A stretch of DNA of 8,561 nt, taken from contig MGOH01000082.1 in NCBI GenBank assembly GCA_001795315.1, forward strand, positions 1-8,561, written 5' to 3'. The first letter of the stretch is position 1, and the number at the start of each line of letters is the position of its first letter. This stretch comes from Chloroflexi bacterium RBG_19FT_COMBO_48_23. Its GTDB lineage: Bacteria; Chloroflexota; Dehalococcoidia; GIF9; UBA5620. Position numbers and translations under genes: made by a program. The notes under the pieces were generated by a model, which saw nothing but the letters and a program-made list of their open reading frames with translations, was not told the origin of the DNA and did not search any database. This document shows, one piece after another, positions 1-6,075 of this stretch.

Positions 1-403
1 AGCCGGCTTTATCCATGGGAGAAACCGTGGTTACGGTAACATCGATTTGCATGAAATCTTTGATCAGCCGAGGTATCTGATGGAAATAGTTGGGCACGAA
101 GTAGTTCAGCCCCACTCTAACCCCGGCTCTATCAGCCAGTCCAACAAACCAGGTATATACCTGAATACAATCGCAAAGGTCAGGCGCCAGTATGGTCATG
201 GCAGCATTCTCTGCCGGATGAAGGAAATAGAAGCTTATGTTTTTCAGATCCCCCTGTCTTGCCCTGTCTGCGATAGCAGTCAGAAGAGCAAAAGGTTCAG
301 CGTTGACCATGCCTGGCACGATGGTGGCACCATCCTGAATGTCTTCGACTGCCTTCTCCGGCGTGGTTAGCTTTTTTCGATATTCCTCAAAATAGCCACT
401 CAT
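1..403 (-). CDS. Acetyl-CoA hydrolase/4-hydroxybutyrate CoA-transferase family protein, N-terminal part (cut by window edge)
   Basis: The reading frame opens with ATG at 401-403 on the minus strand and stays open for 134 codons to the window edge. The protein begins MSGYFEEYRKKL. It shows the pattern of the acetyl-CoA hydrolase/transferase N-terminal domain: a Y-x3-L opening, an AVEDIQDGATIVPG segment near residues 18-31, an EP-x-ALL motif near 36-41, a FVGLADRAG stretch, and PNYFHQIPRLIKD followed by VSPMDKAG at the truncated end. Family members move CoA between acyl groups (acetate, butyrate, 4-hydroxybutyrate, succinate) in the cytoplasm through a glutamyl-CoA intermediate. The catalytic glutamate lies in the missing C-terminal part, so activity and substrate cannot be judged. 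It begins 29 nt after the phosphatase gene upstream, has its own good ribosome binding site, and is probably the last seen member of that transcript. Family assignment is fairly secure; substrate is unknown. Confidence 0.85.
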   Translation of the reverse strand, partial: MSGYFEEYRKKLTTPEKAVEDIQDGATIVPGMVNAEPFALLTAIADRARQGDLKNISFYFLHPAENAAMTILAPDLCDCIQVYTWFVGLADRAGVRVGLNYFVPNYFHQIPRLIKDFMQIDVTVTTVSPMDKAG

Positions 404-432: not shown

Positions 433-2154
433 CTAATTTCCCTTTCCATTAAACCTCAGAGCCAGCATGGTGATGTCGTCAGACTGGGGCATTCCACGAG
501 TGAATTTCTCTATCTCAGCTCTTACTGCACTTATTATGTACGTCGGTTCCCTGTCTTTCAAGCTGGACAGGCAATTTTTAAGTCTATCGCTAGAGAACAG
601 GTGTTTTTCTGGATTTTCAGCCTCTGTTACACCATCGGTATACATAAAAATAACATCGTTTGGCTTGAGTATTAGTTTTTGGCATTCGAATTTGACATCT
701 GGCATTACACCTACCACCAGGCTTTTAGACATCTGGATGAATTCAAACTCGCCGTCGGCGGTACATATTAAAGGTGGATTATGCCCACCATTGGCAAATA
801 ATATTTCACCGTTTTCCGTATTGAGCATTACACAGAAGCCCGTGAAAAACATAGAGAACTCATTATCAGGATACAACATACCGTTAACTCTGGTCAGAAT
901 TTGTTCCGGCGATAAGCCGCGTAATGCCTCCGTCTTCAACAGGGTTTTGCTAATAGCCATGAACAGCGCCGCCGGAATACCCTTTCCACAAACATCACCG
1001 ATATCAAAACATAGTTTATTCTGGTCAACAAAGAAGAAGTCATAGAAATCGCCGCCTACTTCTCTTGCCGGAGCCATGGTAGCAAAAATATCGAACTCTT
1101 TTCTATCTGGAAACGGAGGAAATGTCCTGGGCAGCATGCTGGTCTGAATTTCAGTAGCCACTCTTAGCTCACTATCGATACGCTCCTTGGCTGCGGTAGT
1201 TCTCTCGAGTTCCTTCATGTGTATTTTCAGGCTCTCAACCATATCCTGGAAGGTCCTGGCCAATTCCCCCAACTCATCGTTACGTCTGGCGACGGGGTTA
1301 ATTACGCTTGTCTGATACTCGCCTGAACCGATAACTTTAGCCCCGGTGCAAAGTAGCGACACGGGCGATGTCAGTCTCCTGACCATAAATACGGATGTAA
1401 TTGTGCCCACCAGCAGGACAACGACGGATGCCAGCCCAGCCCAGCGGAGCAAGTCCAGTGCCGCCTCGTGTGTTGCTTGAGCGGCAGCGGTACCGCCCAC
1501 AATAGATACAATCGTGTCATCAACACGCCAGACAAGTATGGCCGTTGTCCCCAGAATACAGGCAGCGAGCAGAAAAGTCACCATTAGTATGACTCTAGTT
1601 TCTAGGGTCAGCACAAGACGCCTGATAGCCAGCAGTAATAGAGGAACTATGACGAAAGCCAGCAGGACATTGGTCAGCAAAGAGGGTAGCAACCAGCCCA
1701 GAATGGCTTCCTGAAATGATATTCTGTGCAATACCAGGCTATCGATAAAGGTACCGGTAGTCAATCCGACCAGGTTAGCTATCAAGATGGACAATAGGAC
1801 TATGCCGAATTGTCCCACGGTCTTGATGATCCGTATACCCATTAGATAGACAATGCCCGGTATAGCTCCCAGCAGGCCATTGCCGATAGACCAGTCCCAA
1901 TACTGCAGTCCATATCCGGAGAGAAAGTCACCAAAAACGTTGCCCACAAATCCAGTGATAAATCCGGGAAGAGGGCCAAAAGCCAACCCCATGGTTATAG
2001 GAATTGCAACCTGCGGTCTCAGGCTAACTAAGGTGGCACCGGGTAGATGCAGGCCACTGAAAGCCCAGTTCAACAGCCCGTAAAACAGTGCTACACCTAG
2101 AGCAAGTAGCAGCTTTGTCGATATTGTTCTGCCTGCAAATATACCAGCTATCAT
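433..2154 (-). CDS. Membrane sensor with ECF-like TM domain, HAMP and SpoIIE/RsbU-type PP2C phosphatase
   Basis: This 573-residue protein has three parts. Residues about 12-180 are a multi-pass membrane domain with SLRPQVAIPITMGLAFGPLPG and a GNGLLGAIPG segment, resembling ECF-transporter S-component folds. Two further membrane helices (about 187-209 and 236-258) flank a short extracytoplasmic loop and lead into a HAMP linker (about 257-312) and a coiled coil (about 310-340). Residues about 345-570 are a SpoIIE/PP2C phosphatase with metal-binding motifs GGDFYDF (368-374), GDVCGKG (386-392), YTDGVTE (505-511) and SDDIT (558-562). All expected aspartates are present, so it should be active. Such enzymes dephosphorylate a STAS anti-sigma antagonist, here plausibly the product at 5734-6075. 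An in-frame TAA lies just upstream of the ATG, so the start cannot be much further out. No clear Shine-Dalgarno precedes it. The ligand of the membrane domain is unknown. Confidence 0.9.
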   Translation of the reverse strand: MIAGIFAGRTISTKLLLALGVALFYGLLNWAFSGLHLPGATLVSLRPQVAIPITMGLAFGPLPGFITGFVGNVFGDFLSGYGLQYWDWSIGNGLLGAIPGIVYLMGIRIIKTVGQFGIVLLSILIANLVGLTTGTFIDSLVLHRISFQEAILGWLLPSLLTNVLLAFVIVPLLLLAIRRLVLTLETRVILMVTFLLAACILGTTAILVWRVDDTIVSIVGGTAAAQATHEAALDLLRWAGLASVVVLLVGTITSVFMVRRLTSPVSLLCTGAKVIGSGEYQTSVINPVARRNDELGELARTFQDMVESLKIHMKELERTTAAKERIDSELRVATEIQTSMLPRTFPPFPDRKEFDIFATMAPAREVGGDFYDFFFVDQNKLCFDIGDVCGKGIPAALFMAISKTLLKTEALRGLSPEQILTRVNGMLYPDNEFSMFFTGFCVMLNTENGEILFANGGHNPPLICTADGEFEFIQMSKSLVVGVMPDVKFECQKLILKPNDVIFMYTDGVTEAENPEKHLFSSDRLKNCLSSLKDREPTYIISAVRAEIEKFTRGMPQSDDITMLALRFNGKGN

Positions 2155-2206
2155 CGGTGTTTATGCCATTTGCTATTTGCTGCAGACAGGCCTTGTTTCT
2201 GCAACG

Positions 2207-2635
2207 CTACCGCTTCTTCCCGATCAGCATCTTTCTCATTACCAGCGTGTTGCCTTCTTCCGCATCGAAGCTGTAGCTGACATCGTCCATCATAATTCTC
2301 ATCATATATATACCCAGCCCGCCGATTTTCCGTTTGTCCAGGTCCGCCTCCAGATCAGGCGGCGGAACAGATGACGGGTCAAAAGGTTTCCCCTTATCTC
2401 TGATGGTGGCTACGAAATCGTTGCCCTGCAACTCACAGGTCACAGTGATTATGCCACCTTCCCCAGAGTAGGCATAATTTATTATGTTGGTACACGCCTC
2501 ATCCACAGCCGTTTGTACTTCGAATACGCCTGTCTCTACGCCAAGCTGGCTCATCGAACTGGAAATGAAATCGGCGATTACCGACAGATTTTCCAGCTTA
2601 GCATCGACTTTTAACTCAAGTTGATTATTCTTCGT
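2207..2635 (-). CDS. RsbW/SpoIIAB-like anti-sigma factor serine kinase (HATPase_c_2), probable ACG start
   Basis: The GHKL ATPase fold of anti-sigma kinases is clear. The N box reads AVDEACTNIINYA, the G1 box IRDKGKPFD and the G2 box GGLGIYMM. The first ATG in frame (2552-2554) would give 115 residues and delete the first strand and helix. The conserved N-terminus continues upstream without a stop as LELKVDAKLENLSVIADFI to a TGA at 2639-2641. No ATG, GTG or TTG exists in that extension. An ACG at 2633-2635 sits 6 nt after a near-consensus ribosome binding site. It gives 142 residues, and places the N-box Glu and Asn at positions 46 and 50, the numbers I recall for SpoIIAB. Its family phosphorylates a STAS antagonist and binds a sigma factor. 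It lies between the two phosphatase genes, 10 nt after the preceding stop. The identity is secure; the start codon is inferred. Confidence 0.85.
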   Translation of the reverse strand, partial: TKNNQLELKVDAKLENLSVIADFISSSMSQLGVETGVFEVQTAVDEACTNIINYAYSGEGGIITVTCELQGNDFVATIRDKGKPFDPSSVPPPDLEADLDKRKIGGLGIYMMRIMMDDVSYSFDAEEGNTLVMRKMLIGKKR

Positions 2636-2638
2636 TGT

Positions 2639-2647
2639 TCACCCCCT
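2639..2647 (-). promoter_or_regulatory. Ribosome binding site of the RsbW-like gene, pointing to a non-ATG start
   Basis: The minus strand reads AGGGGGTGA, one mismatch from the full anti-SD complement AGGAGGTGA. It overlaps the TAG stop of the preceding phosphatase gene. The next standard start in the RsbW-like frame is more than 80 nt away. ACG at 2633-2635 is at ideal spacing. A GTG inside the site (2640-2642) is in another frame and meets a stop after five codons. Confidence 0.6.
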
Positions 2648-4013
2648 AAGTTGCCTTTAATATCACCAAGGTGAAATCGTCAAATTGAGGCTGGTCCTGA
2701 GCAAAGGTAAAAACTTCGTCCTTCACTCTGCCAACTAAATCTTTCACCGGCAAGTCTGCATTCCGATTTATCGTTTCAACAAGCCTTTTTTCGCCAAACT
2801 GTTCCCCCGCACTATTGATAGCCTCAGTGATGCCATCGGTATAAAAGACTACTATATCATTGCTGTCCAGTTCAATCTCCTTCTCCTCCAGGGAAACATC
2901 GTCTATAACACCCATGGCAATCCCGCTGGCTCGCAACAGGATAACATCTCCCGAACTTTTTTTAACCACAAAGGGTGGATTGTGACCGGCATTGACGTAT
3001 TGCAGCCGTCTTTTCTTAGGGTCCAGCACAGCATAAAATAAAGTTACGAACATACCCATCTTCGCTTCCTGCGAAATCAGGCGGTTTGCCTTCTGCATGG
3101 CTTGAGAAGCTGTGGGGTTGTCAGCGACGTTGGCTCGAACCAGCGTTCGGGACAGTGCCATAAACAAAGCTGCCGGCACACCTTTGCCCGATACATCAGC
3201 TATTATTATTCCCCACTTACCTTCGGAGACGGGTATAAAATCATAGAAATCTCCTCCAACCTGCCTCGCCGGCAAGTTCAGAGCAGCAAGTTCAAACCCC
3301 TCTATTATAGGTGGCGACTCAGGCAAAAAGCTTTGCTGGATTCCCCTGGCAGTCTCCATCTCATATTCTGTTCGCTCCAGTTCGCGTCTATAGCTTTCCT
3401 TTTCTTCCGCCGTCCTTCTCTCAGTTATCAGATTGCGTATTATAAAAGCGAAGATAGCCATACCCAGTGCATTAGCACCGGTCATAGGCAAAATAACCTC
3501 TTTAACCACCCCCAGTGCCTGCTCATATGGTTTGGCTATCAATAGCGTCAACCCCATATGTAATGATTCCATAAAGATAGCAAAAAGTATCGCCTGCCAA
3601 ACTGCAACGAACTCCCCTCTTTTAAGTCGATAAATGGCACCACCCAATAGACCGGCTATAACGGTGCTCAAAGCGCAAGGGATGCACACAAATCCACCAA
3701 GGAAATAGCGGTGCAGGCCACCTATTAGGCCTGCACCGAGGCCTACCACAGGACCACCAACAAGCCCGGCCACCATCGGACCGAGGTCTCTAATATTGGC
3801 TATGGCACCGGACGGCAGTATTAATCCACCATATGTGCCGAATACGGACAGTGCCCCAAAAAGCAAAATCAGGATAGCCTGGTTTTTAAAACTGAATTTT
3901 TTGTCTAATATCTGGGCAAAGAATCCGGTGCGGGTCAAAACGTAGGCAAAAGCAACAACTACGCAGGCAGTCTTAATCAGGTCTATCAATATACTGGCTA
4001 TTGATACGTCCAT
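2646..4013 (-). CDS. LytS-type 5TM sensor with SpoIIE/RsbU-type PP2C phosphatase
   Basis: This is a 455-residue membrane protein. Residues about 5-195 form a 5TM-5TMR_LYT-type receptor domain as in LytS/YhcK proteins. The signature is ANIRDLGPMVAGLVGGP at about 72-88, then GLGAGLIGGLHRYFLGGF at about 91-108. A charged, coiled-coil-like linker (about 197-225) leads to the SpoIIE phosphatase domain (about 225-454). Its motifs are GGDFYDF (253-259), ADVSGKG (272-278), YTDGITE (391-397) and FDDFT (444-448), with the metal-binding aspartates intact. The expected role is sensing a membrane or envelope signal and dephosphorylating a STAS antagonist to release a sigma factor or other partner. It starts 23 nt after the upstream gene with a modest AGGTTG ribosome binding site, and is followed 10 nt later by the RsbW-like kinase. 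It shares the catalytic domain type with the 433-2154 protein but has a different sensor. Confidence 0.92.
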   Translation of the reverse strand: MDVSIASILIDLIKTACVVVAFAYVLTRTGFFAQILDKKFSFKNQAILILLFGALSVFGTYGGLILPSGAIANIRDLGPMVAGLVGGPVVGLGAGLIGGLHRYFLGGFVCIPCALSTVIAGLLGGAIYRLKRGEFVAVWQAILFAIFMESLHMGLTLLIAKPYEQALGVVKEVILPMTGANALGMAIFAFIIRNLITERRTAEEKESYRRELERTEYEMETARGIQQSFLPESPPIIEGFELAALNLPARQVGGDFYDFIPVSEGKWGIIIADVSGKGVPAALFMALSRTLVRANVADNPTASQAMQKANRLISQEAKMGMFVTLFYAVLDPKKRRLQYVNAGHNPPFVVKKSSGDVILLRASGIAMGVIDDVSLEEKEIELDSNDIVVFYTDGITEAINSAGEQFGEKRLVETINRNADLPVKDLVGRVKDEVFTFAQDQPQFDDFTLVILKAT

Positions 4014-4036
4014 GTCAACCTAGTGCGAGGCGGTTT

Positions 4037-5515
4037 TCATCCCCTTGCTTTAGTAACATAATCAAGTAGCTCTTTACCAAAATCAGATTCAATCTGAACG
4101 TTTTTGAGGTCAACATCTACATTATTAAGATATTGTAAACGAAGTACATCACCGCCAAGCATTTCCGGGATGACTCCGGCAAAAAAGAAGCCAAGCATTT
4201 CCAGGGAGGCACAAAATTTCGGTGTAGCCGGGTGGGACAGAGGTAAATCAATATAGATACAGTCGATTCGACGCAGGCAAAGCTCCCGTAAACGGAATTT
4301 CACCAATCCTTCCAGGTCGGCTCCGTATTGTGCGATGAGCATAAAAGCACGGCTGGCATCAGCCTGCACCCTCACATCTACCTGAGAAGATGTAGGTATA
4401 TCAAACTGGTCTTTAACATCAGGTGCGCTGATAATATTCCGTCGGAAATTGTTCCTCTCATATATGCTACGGATAATCGCCTGATGGTGAAATGGCGGAT
4501 ACACATCTCGCTGTGGTTCCTCATTAAGCCTGGTATATAAGAGAACTGCAACTTGACGTTGTTGTCGATTTCCTTCCCGGATTTTTTTAAACAACATAGT
4601 TGCAGGGGTAAAACCTAAAAGGACACCTGTCTCGCGTGCTCCAATGGAAAGAGCTGCCTTCTGACTGTAGGCGTGAACGGTTACCGCTTCGCTATAAGTG
4701 CCATACATTCCCATACCCTTCGCATGTTCTACCGAAGCGCTTATTAACTTATTAAGTAAACCATGGCCTCTATATCGCGGGTCGACTACTGCCTGTCCTC
4801 TCTCTCCGATTCTAGCGTCAGGATGTTCCTTGCGTATTGCCAAATGGCCAATAACCTCATCATCGGGACTTAAGGCGACATGAGATATCAGCAATCCGCT
4901 TTCCAAAAATTCTCGCACTCTGTCAGGGAAATAAACATCACCATTAGCGTAGGTGTATCCATAGCAACGATACACACACCTGGACAAATCGACTGAGTCA
5001 TCCGGTCTCATCAAGCGTATTGTGAGTTGAATATCCTCCGGTACAGGGGAAAGAGGTAAGGCTCTGTCCTTCTCCTCTTCAGAAATATATGCTTCTACGT
5101 CTTTGTAGGGAAGGTTTTTAACGAGTTCGACTCTCTTGCCACGACGACCCAGGTTGAGAAAATGAATCTCGTCAGCAAAAGCTTTCATCAATATGATGCC
5201 GAGACCTGATTCTTTCTCGACGTCAAATTTTCTGAAATCAAAAGGCAACCCCTGGTCTTCAACTGCCACTACAACCTGCCCCGGCTTCCGCAGGATAACA
5301 ACATCGAAAGAACCCTGCTCTCCAGGGTCAAAAGCATGTTCAATCACATTCAAACAAGCTTCTTCCACCACGAGCTCAAGCTGCTCTATATCATTGCCGG
5401 ATAGGCCCAGCTTGGTGGAGATTTCTCGCACAAAACTGGCAACAGCAGGTAGGAACTCCACCTTTGCCACAAGTATAATACGAGCCACCTGTTGTTCTTC
5501 TTGAATATTATCCAT
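4037..5515 (-). CDS. Fusion of RsbW-like ATPase with GNAT acetyltransferase and a divergent C-terminal region
   Basis: This is a 492-residue soluble protein. Residues about 10-137 are an anti-sigma-type HATPase. The N box is LVVEEACLNVIEHAF with Glu52 and Asn56, the G1 box VEDQGLPFD (Asp87) and the G2 box ESGLGIILMKAF (102-113). Residues about 164-312 are a GNAT domain beginning IRLMRPDD. Its acetyl-CoA loop is VVDPRYRGHGLLNKL at about 243-257. The region after about 320 looks like a second, degenerate GNAT-type lobe (VRVQADASRAFML; LEMLGFFFAGVIPEML), but no CoA loop is visible there. The ATPase could phosphorylate the STAS protein encoded upstream. The acetyltransferase could be an output or sensor arm using acetyl-CoA. 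Substrates are unknown. The ATG at 5513-5515 is preceded by AAGGGCAG, a weak ribosome binding site. A fusion is certain from the single uninterrupted frame; function is inference. Confidence 0.87.
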   Translation of the reverse strand: MDNIQEEQQVARIILVAKVEFLPAVASFVREISTKLGLSGNDIEQLELVVEEACLNVIEHAFDPGEQGSFDVVILRKPGQVVVAVEDQGLPFDFRKFDVEKESGLGIILMKAFADEIHFLNLGRRGKRVELVKNLPYKDVEAYISEEEKDRALPLSPVPEDIQLTIRLMRPDDSVDLSRCVYRCYGYTYANGDVYFPDRVREFLESGLLISHVALSPDDEVIGHLAIRKEHPDARIGERGQAVVDPRYRGHGLLNKLISASVEHAKGMGMYGTYSEAVTVHAYSQKAALSIGARETGVLLGFTPATMLFKKIREGNRQQRQVAVLLYTRLNEEPQRDVYPPFHHQAIIRSIYERNNFRRNIISAPDVKDQFDIPTSSQVDVRVQADASRAFMLIAQYGADLEGLVKFRLRELCLRRIDCIYIDLPLSHPATPKFCASLEMLGFFFAGVIPEMLGGDVLRLQYLNNVDVDLKNVQIESDFGKELLDYVTKARG

Positions 5516-5733
5516 GAGGCTGCCCTTACAATATTAATCAGCACTCCTCTGAATATGCCCGTCGGCCGTAAAAGCCGCACTCCCTTAACGCTTGGCTAAC
5601 TTGTGTTTAATGCAATCCTGCTTATTTGCGATATCGAACAGAGATGCCAGGAGAAACTTGAAAGAGGAAAAGATGTAGCCCAATTTCTAACCTTCAAGAT
5701 GGTTCGAAATATGCCAGCCGTGACAATACCCAC
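5516..5733 (-). other. 218-nt gap inside the partner-switch cluster
   Basis: This separates the STAS gene from the ATPase-GNAT gene, whereas the other spacers in the cluster are 10 to 52 nt. The minus strand is open for about 45 codons from GTG at 5733, but the peptide has no recognisable pattern. No hairpin followed by a T run was seen in the transcript direction, and no convincing -35/-10 pair. The stretch may hold a weak internal promoter or a decayed coding remnant, but neither can be shown by eye. Confidence 0.4.
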
Positions 5734-6075
5734 CTACGCCTCGCTAAAACCACTAACAGCGGCCTCCTGGGTATCAAATATATTAAAAAGCTGGCTAAAT
5801 CCAGCGATGTCAAACACTTCCTTTATAAAAGGTTTCATGCAGGCCAGCTTGATATCCCCTTGCTGTTTTCTTGTTTTCTTAAGCGCTGCCAAAAAGACTC
5901 TAAGGCCTGAACTACTGATATACTCCAACTTCTCAAGGTCAATTACCAGGCAAGGTTGACCAGCCTCAATTAATGAGTCCATCTTCTTCTCTACCTCGGT
6001 TGCACAGTAGGCATCCAGCCTGCCCGATAGCGATAGCACGTTCACGCTCCCAAGTTTCTTCTCTACGATCTCCAT
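5734..6075 (-). CDS. STAS-domain anti-sigma factor antagonist (RsbV/SpoIIAA-like)
   Basis: This 113-residue protein is a single STAS domain, the usual size for RsbV/SpoIIAA. It opens with MEIVEKKLGSVNVLSLSGRLD and contains the central LVIDLEKLEYISSSGLRVF segment. By alignment with the SpoIIAA DSSGL motif, the phosphorylated serine should be Ser55 in ISSSGL. In its family the unphosphorylated form binds the anti-sigma kinase and frees the sigma factor; the kinase phosphorylates it and SpoIIE-type phosphatases reset it. It is the only STAS protein visible beside two ATPases and two phosphatases. The start is fixed by a perfect AGGAGG 7 nt upstream. It is the first gene of the minus-strand cluster, with a candidate promoter about 80 nt upstream, and is divergent from the CDF-like gene. 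Confidence 0.93.
   Translation of the reverse strand: MEIVEKKLGSVNVLSLSGRLDAYCATEVEKKMDSLIEAGQPCLVIDLEKLEYISSSGLRVFLAALKKTRKQQGDIKLACMKPFIKEVFDIAGFSQLFNIFDTQEAAVSGFSEA

Follow-up and report, generated by a model that had tools for sequence, protein, structure and literature searches.

Partner-switching systems of the Rsb/SpoIIA type consist of a SpoIIE/RsbU phosphatase, an RsbW/SpoIIAB kinase, and an RsbV/SpoIIAA antagonist, and classically their output is a sigma factor. Non-sigma partner switches are also known, and SiaABC-SiaD, HsbR/HsbA-HsbD, and BgrUWV, as described in PMC7647112, act on diguanylate cyclases or cyclic di-GMP (c-di-GMP) levels. Among enzymes that modify proteins, Type III bacterial lysine acetyltransferases (KATs) combine a GNAT domain with an N-terminal regulatory domain for cyclic AMP, amino acids, or NADP+, as outlined in PMC8556138 and PMC11254643, and AcuA of Bacillus is a GNAT encoded beside the acetyl-CoA synthetase AcsA, which it inactivates (PMC8556138). 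The stretch analyzed here (the window) comprises 8,561 nt of contig MGOH01000082.1 from Chloroflexi bacterium RBG_19FT_COMBO_48_23 and carries, at 433-6075, a cluster of partner-switch genes in which one of two RsbW-type ATPase domains is fused to a GNAT domain. We propose that this cluster may be a partner switch whose output is enzymatic and linked to acyl-CoA, with the fused GNAT as the likely effector, a tentative reading that we place somewhat below an even chance.

Protein families were called by Pfam profile matches on the open reading frames (ORFs) of the window. All five partner-switch genes lie on the minus strand and encode one STAS protein, two HATPase_c_2 proteins, and two SpoIIE phosphatases. 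In the direction of the minus strand, the order is STAS, a 492-amino-acid (aa) protein, a LytS-type SpoIIE, a small RsbW, an ECF-S/HAMP/SpoIIE protein, and the start of a CoA-transferase, with the following features:

5734..6075, minus strand: STAS antagonist of the anti-anti-sigma type, 113 aa, first gene (PF01740, 75.2 bits)
4037..5515, minus strand: RsbW-GNAT fusion, 492 aa (PF13581, 75 bits, and PF00583, 29 bits; AlphaFold2 model)
2646..4013, minus strand: 5TM-5TMR_LYT (LytS-type) membrane sensor with SpoIIE phosphatase, 455 aa (PF07694, 164.6 bits; PF07228, 176.9 bits)
2207..2635, minus strand: small separate RsbW-type ATPase, 142 aa counted from an ACG codon (PF13581, 99.8 bits; lid stretch of 28 residues)
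433..2154, minus strand: ECF-S-like membrane domain with HAMP and SpoIIE phosphatase, 573 aa (PF07155, 56.5 bits; PF00672, 32.9 bits; PF07228, 169.1 bits)
2..403, minus strand: N-terminal part of a CoA-transferase of the acetyl-CoA hydrolase/transferase family, cut by the window edge (PF02550, 28 bits; full-length homologues in locus L001)

The intergenic gaps, from STAS onward, are 218, 23, 10, 52, and 29 bp, the last separating the ECF-S/HAMP/SpoIIE gene from the CoA-transferase gene downstream of it; this spacing suggests that the last five genes form a single operon, to which STAS may also belong. The STAS protein can be aligned with RsbV and SpoIIAA chains, and its phospho-acceptor region reads YISSSGLR, with Ser55/Ser56 assigned by alignment. 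Both SpoIIE phosphatases keep the aspartates of GGDFYD, YTDG, and DD, as read by eye in the translations against what we take to be the SpoIIE aspartate motif, and the small RsbW has an intact Glu and Asn in its N-box (DEACTN). At the sequence level, the locus thus holds the three parts of a partner-switching core: a STAS protein with a phosphorylatable Ser/Thr, an RsbW-type kinase, and a PP2C/SpoIIE phosphatase. Judged by these features, the cluster is a real partner-switch system with an unusual second ATPase. A preliminary description, made from the DNA letters, had named the same five genes on one strand, with LytS 5TM and ECF-like/HAMP sensors, and had found the phosphatase aspartates and both N-box Glu/Asn pairs intact; the Pfam matches, translations, and alignments agree with this. 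It had, however, taken the 492-aa protein for a plain RsbW-type kinase, and so overlooked the fusion and its short lid, as well as the CoA-transferase gene and a start-codon problem in the small RsbW.

The fused protein consists of an RsbW-type ATPase domain followed by a GNAT domain (AlphaFold2 model, mean pLDDT 78.8), and its parts are as follows:

5108..5491, minus strand: RsbW/SpoIIAB-fold ATPase domain, residues 9-136, with E52, N56, D87, and GLG 104-106 intact and a lid of 19 residues
4508..5029, minus strand: GNAT domain, residues 163-336, with RYRGHG at 247-252 and invariant E276, H281, S/T284, and Q285
4040..4570, minus strand: C-terminal domain, residues 316-492, partly GNAT-like

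The window protein shows both the GNAT fold and the superfamily's (R/Q)xxGx(G/A) motif. The loci nearest to it are L001, a Chloroflexi bacterium (87% identity), and L002, a Dehalococcoidia bacterium (70% identity); several close relatives carry these two names, and fusions of about 490 aa occur in many phyla. Literature searches, most subscription journals and preprints lying outside their reach, returned no paper on an RsbW-GNAT fusion. An alignment was built from 63 near-full-length rows, namely the window and 61 of 68 loci, of which L004 gives two rows; the other seven were omitted as split, cut, or spurious ORFs. E276, H281, S/T284, and Q285 are invariant in all 63 rows, whereas the ATPase motifs vary by clade, and for this reason the ATPase part looks regulatory. 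The N-box Asn is replaced by Ser in the five aligned fusions linked to LuxC and in one Bacteroidales copy, and fusions linked to pyruvate dehydrogenase (PDH) have an altered G2 box. L027, L041, and L046 have a STAS gene and another RsbW-type domain nearby, and there the Ser is in the fusion while the companion keeps the Asn.

The lid provides a second distinction. Measured between the Asp of the G1 box and the Leu of the G2 box, the stretch is 19 residues in the fused ATPase of the window, compared with 28 in SpoIIAB and 32 in Bacillus subtilis RsbW, so that the full-length ATP lid of these kinases is lacking. The length is exactly 19 in 53 of the 63 rows and below 28 in all but one (62/63), and six of seven companion RsbW domains have 28 residues, the seventh having 24. 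The short lid suggests a receptor more than a kinase, and we infer that the fused ATPase may have lost kinase activity.

Two further lines of evidence concern the output of the switch. First, no sigma gene was found anywhere in the window by family searches of its proteins, in agreement with the preliminary description. That description had called for a check of related genomes, and the genomes of L001, L002, and L004 (G001, G002, and G003, all Chloroflexota metagenome-assembled genomes, MAGs) contain four, four, and six matches to sigma-70 region 2, respectively. Those with region 3 (two, one, and three) lie in open frames of 482-542 aa and are RpoD-like, the remaining ones have open frames of 185-211 aa, the size of ECF sigma factors, and no SigB/SigF-type sigma was found in any of the three. 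Neither the window nor these relatives thus show the SigB/SigF/SigG-type target of a sigma-controlling Rsb/SpoIIA system. Transcriptional output via a distant sigma factor would follow the classical pattern, MAGs may be incomplete, and sigma genes in G004 and G010, whose open frames are 288 and 296 aa long, show a weak region 3. Yet, besides the result in the three relatives, the alignment places Ala in both window ATPases at the position of SpoIIAB Arg20, presumably a contact for sigma F and SpoIIAA, and we regard this explanation as quite improbable. The preliminary description had suggested an output that is either distant or not transcriptional; the former has lost ground through the lack of a SigB/SigF-type sigma in G001-G003, while the latter is strengthened because the cluster has its own enzymatic module, the GNAT, together with a CoA-transferase.

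Second, CoA-transferase genes accompany the switch genes. PF13336 genes number three, one, and three in G001, G002, and G003, and six of these seven have a STAS, RsbW, or SpoIIE gene no more than 3 kb away; the chance of this is 2e-9 by a crude estimate that uses a 5 kb margin and ignores shared ancestry. In G001, two CoA-transferases stand in tandem, the first 68 bp past the ECF-SpoIIE gene, and in G002 the gene is 2.9 kb past the small RsbW. In G003, one lies 108 bp after STAS, on a contig other than that of the fusions, and one 1.35 kb after ECF-SpoIIE, while a third, divergent copy of 632 aa had no match to a switch query within the 9 kb read. Beside the STAS/CoA-transferase pair, G003 also encodes a membrane protein of the 5TM-LYT type, 204 aa long and lacking a phosphatase (L093:196-810). 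The four full-length homologues score 350-370 bits against the butyryl-CoA:acetate CoA-transferase model TIGR03948, below its cut-off of 674.8, and share its superfamily; the window's own copy is cut by the edge.

On this basis, the GNAT is a strong lead as the output of the switch, and the following scheme could be envisaged. The small RsbW would be the STAS kinase, and the LytS-SpoIIE and ECF/HAMP-SpoIIE would dephosphorylate phosphorylated STAS in response to two envelope or metabolite cues. Unphosphorylated STAS would then dock on the fusion's short-lidded RsbW domain, which would serve as a receptor more than as a kinase, and docking would turn the GNAT on or off. Finally, the GNAT would acylate an acyl-CoA-metabolizing enzyme, the likeliest one in this lineage being the neighboring CoA-transferase; this step is the weakest. 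Gene content, domain folds, and motif states are seen directly, and all five steps are inferred from them. Sirtuin-family genes, possible acyl-lysine erasers, occur in five of six genomes tested, including G001-G003, a weak, permissive point.

Genes near the fusion were surveyed more widely over 66 loci, leaving out the window, L065, and L068 (a chance-level match of 53 residues). The neighbor families were chosen post hoc, after the neighbors had been seen, and with them 22 of the 66 loci have a PDH (12), AMP-binding acyl-CoA ligase (4), or LuxC/LuxE (6) gene at most three genes from the fusion. The share of such genes falls with distance, from 47 of 327 up to three genes away to 8 of 155 at positions four and five and 2 of 254 at greater distances. 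Genes for PDH E2 or E3 adjoin the fusion in L020-L022, L025, L030, L032-L034, L036, L040, L051, and L056, in MAGs titled Dadabacteria, Deltaproteobacteria, or Thermodesulfobacteri(ot)a. LuxC/LuxE-type acyl-activation genes adjoin it in L038, L039, L041, L046, L059, and L064, and in L046 a dCache-HAMP-SpoIIE-HATPase protein and STAS come directly after. In a survey covering 50 of the 68 loci, SpoIIE was detected at E 1e-10 in 39 of 50 fusion genomes, and eight of the ten PDH-linked genomes tested had none.

A two-sensor module is also found in the Cloacimonadota group. L009 has the order fusion, NMT1-type binding protein, dCache-HAMP-SpoIIE, 5TM-LYT-SpoIIE, RsbW, and STAS, L098 has the same order by similarity, and L099 and L100 hold partial two-sensor modules beside the fusion; at L078, L101, L102, L106, and L107, the sequence read holds all or part of the module but no fusion. 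Co-occurrence was counted in 124 genomes from the phylum group of G010, titled mostly Cloacimonadota (G309 being Armatimonadetes). The fusion and an orthologue of the dCache-HAMP-SpoIIE sensor were both found in 14 genomes, the sensor only in 2, the fusion only in 8, and neither in 100 (Fisher 3e-11, which ignores phylogeny). The limit for the fusion was E 1e-40, some matches being partial, while that for the sensor, E ~1e-140, was chosen with the list already in view, at the gap that precedes the next genome (4e-96); with the preset limit of 1e-40, the sensor search matched 62 of the 124. In the same group, one 256-aa protein unites RsbW and STAS (L104:922-1692, minus strand, G412).

In its widest form, the proposal would be that the antagonist released by a SpoIIE/RsbW/STAS switch controls a protein acetyltransferase through a repurposed, fused RsbW domain, coupling Ser/Thr phosphosignaling to the acylation of acyl-CoA enzymes (CoA-transferase, acyl-CoA ligase, PDH, and LuxC/LuxE) in several phyla. 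We hold this generalization to be doubtful, though worth stating. If true, a GNAT with an anti-sigma-type domain within a partner-switch operon would link two major systems of post-translational control, and in uncultured bacteria the fusions would be candidates for switching PDH, acyl-CoA ligases, and CoA-transferases. The switch may then tune metabolism directly rather than turn on genes.

Several observations weigh against the GNAT as effector. The fused ATPase of the window retains the N-box Glu/Asn and G-box residues of RsbW/SpoIIAB kinases (E52, N56, D87, G89, G104, and G106), as does every one of the 13 rows in the group to which the window belongs (support 87, not starred), and it may still be a kinase. 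The acyl-CoA motif is complete in the window, but only in 26 of the 63 rows, being incomplete in the other 37. Degenerate ATPase motifs are seen in 10 of 11 rows from genomes lacking SpoIIE, but also in 25 of 40 rows from genomes with it, and a tree-aware test of SpoIIE loss against ATPase degeneration gave none of four informative pairs in a tree made by a quick method and with long branches. No chosen family lies within three genes of the fusion at 44 of the 66 loci, including L001 and L002, whose CoA-transferases are farther away. A second fusion paralogue of the Cloacimonadota group sits by other genes; this divergent copy is found at L109-L114, near a gene that we take to encode DNA polymerase IV. 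The intact kinase motifs and incomplete acyl-CoA motif would also fit an arrangement in which the GNAT part senses acyl-CoA and adjusts the activity of the ATPase joined to it, a second STAS kinase, the output lying elsewhere; type I/II KATs, as described in PMC8556138, likewise have inactive acyl-CoA synthetase domains that bind acetyl-CoA. This reverse direction is improbable in view of the invariant GNAT active site beside a variable ATPase, the short lid, and G008, which has the fusion and in which no SpoIIE and no small STAS protein were found. By the same token, the G008 fusion would have to work without such a switch.

The remaining points against the GNAT as effector come from G096, of the same class as G001, where STAS, a thiamine pyrophosphate (TPP) enzyme, LytS-SpoIIE, RsbW, and two CoA-transferases stand in one run (L116:4288-12616). 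No fusion was found in the 14 kb read around it, nor genome-wide at E 1e-50, a search that matched 3 of 294 genomes, so the switch and CoA-transferase can travel without a GNAT fusion. Direct action of STAS or RsbW on enzymes is for this reason a serious rival: free STAS (or RsbW) would bind the CoA-transferase or acetolactate-synthase-like enzyme, with the RsbW-GNAT as an accessory. The RsbW/CoA-transferase and STAS/TPP-enzyme ORFs of G096 overlap by four bases in a mechanical ORF listing, the 108-bp STAS/CoA-transferase pair of G003 fits as well, and SiaC and SiaD provide a precedent for a STAS-like protein that targets an enzyme directly (as described in PMC7647112). Still, the fusion lies inside or beside switch genes in the window, L001, L002, L009, L027, L041, L046, and L098-L100, and we consider direct action unlikely, though deserving of attention. 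The TPP-enzyme gene of G096 has an in-frame TAG. A LytS-SpoIIE search at E 1e-70 also matched 3 of 294 genomes, G111 by the sensor half only, where the LytS 5TM sensor is fused to an adenylate/guanylate cyclase domain beside a cyclic-nucleotide-binding protein (L117:3259-5028).

A further question is whether one switch or two are present. The single STAS of the preliminary description is true of the window cluster, yet G001 and G002 encode two small STAS proteins apiece, which could support two independent switches side by side, each ATPase having its own STAS. In G001, both SpoIIE genes of the genome and both clear RsbW domains are in the cluster (one further weak match is over the cut-off), while the second STAS gene lies outside it. 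The separate STAS elsewhere that the preliminary description had named as evidence against a common switch is thus partly borne out, and because of this location two parallel switches could be at work. However, 1.9 kb from that STAS on G001 contig C52 is a C-terminal CoA-transferase piece (L077:77-2887, minus strand), and between them are an acetolactate-synthase-like gene and a 45-residue LytS N-terminal remnant, so that the locus looks like a decayed copy of a G096-type operon. With a single STAS in the window cluster as well, two switches seem very improbable.

Within the window cluster, the start of the small RsbW deserves comment. An ATG-only ORF spans 2207-2554 and misses the conserved N-terminus; the frame is open upstream to an ACG at 2635-2633, with no in-frame ATG, GTG, or TTG ahead of the conserved first strand. 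This ACG occupies the position of the ATG in L002, about 6 nt after a purine-rich stretch, and relatives in G003 and G096 begin with ATG. L001 has an ACG at the same place (4913-4915), with an in-frame TTG a few codons later. Either this is a rare ACG start or, less likely, an error common to the window and L001. In G003, the distance from two tandem RsbW-GNAT genes (L004:8494-11482) to the end of contig C52 is 173 bp, and that from the start of contig C58 to LytS-SpoIIE is 198 bp; no overlap was seen between the contig ends, and the genes may be neighbors across an assembly gap. Divergent plus-strand genes in the window encode a CDF cation transporter, a 4Fe-4S protein, and HisH.

Compared with known systems, the cluster resembles Rsb/SpoIIA in its three protein types, intact motifs, and arrangement in one cluster, but differs in having no sigma gene in the window and none of SigB/SigF type found in three relatives, in the fusion of its second ATPase domain to a GNAT, and in its two different sensor phosphatases. 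With SiaABC-SiaD, HsbR/HsbA-HsbD, and BgrUWV, it would share an enzyme or signaling pathway as output under protein-protein contact, yet where the non-sigma switches described in PMC7647112 act on c-di-GMP, the candidate effector here is a GNAT with its own RsbW-like domain. The fusion has the architecture of the Type III KATs, an N-terminal regulatory domain before a GNAT, with an additional C-terminal domain; the regulated bacterial acetyltransferases described in PMC8556138 and PMC11254643 sense small molecules, whereas the regulatory domain here is an RsbW/SpoIIAB-fold ATPase, and lysine acylation is putative. Finally, as with AcuA and AcsA, a GNAT gene adjoins the gene of an acyl-CoA enzyme, as in the Cloacimonadota copies beside an AMP-binding ligase; the account of AcuA in PMC8556138 describes no RsbW domain, and in the lineage of the window a CoA-transferase takes the place of the ligase.

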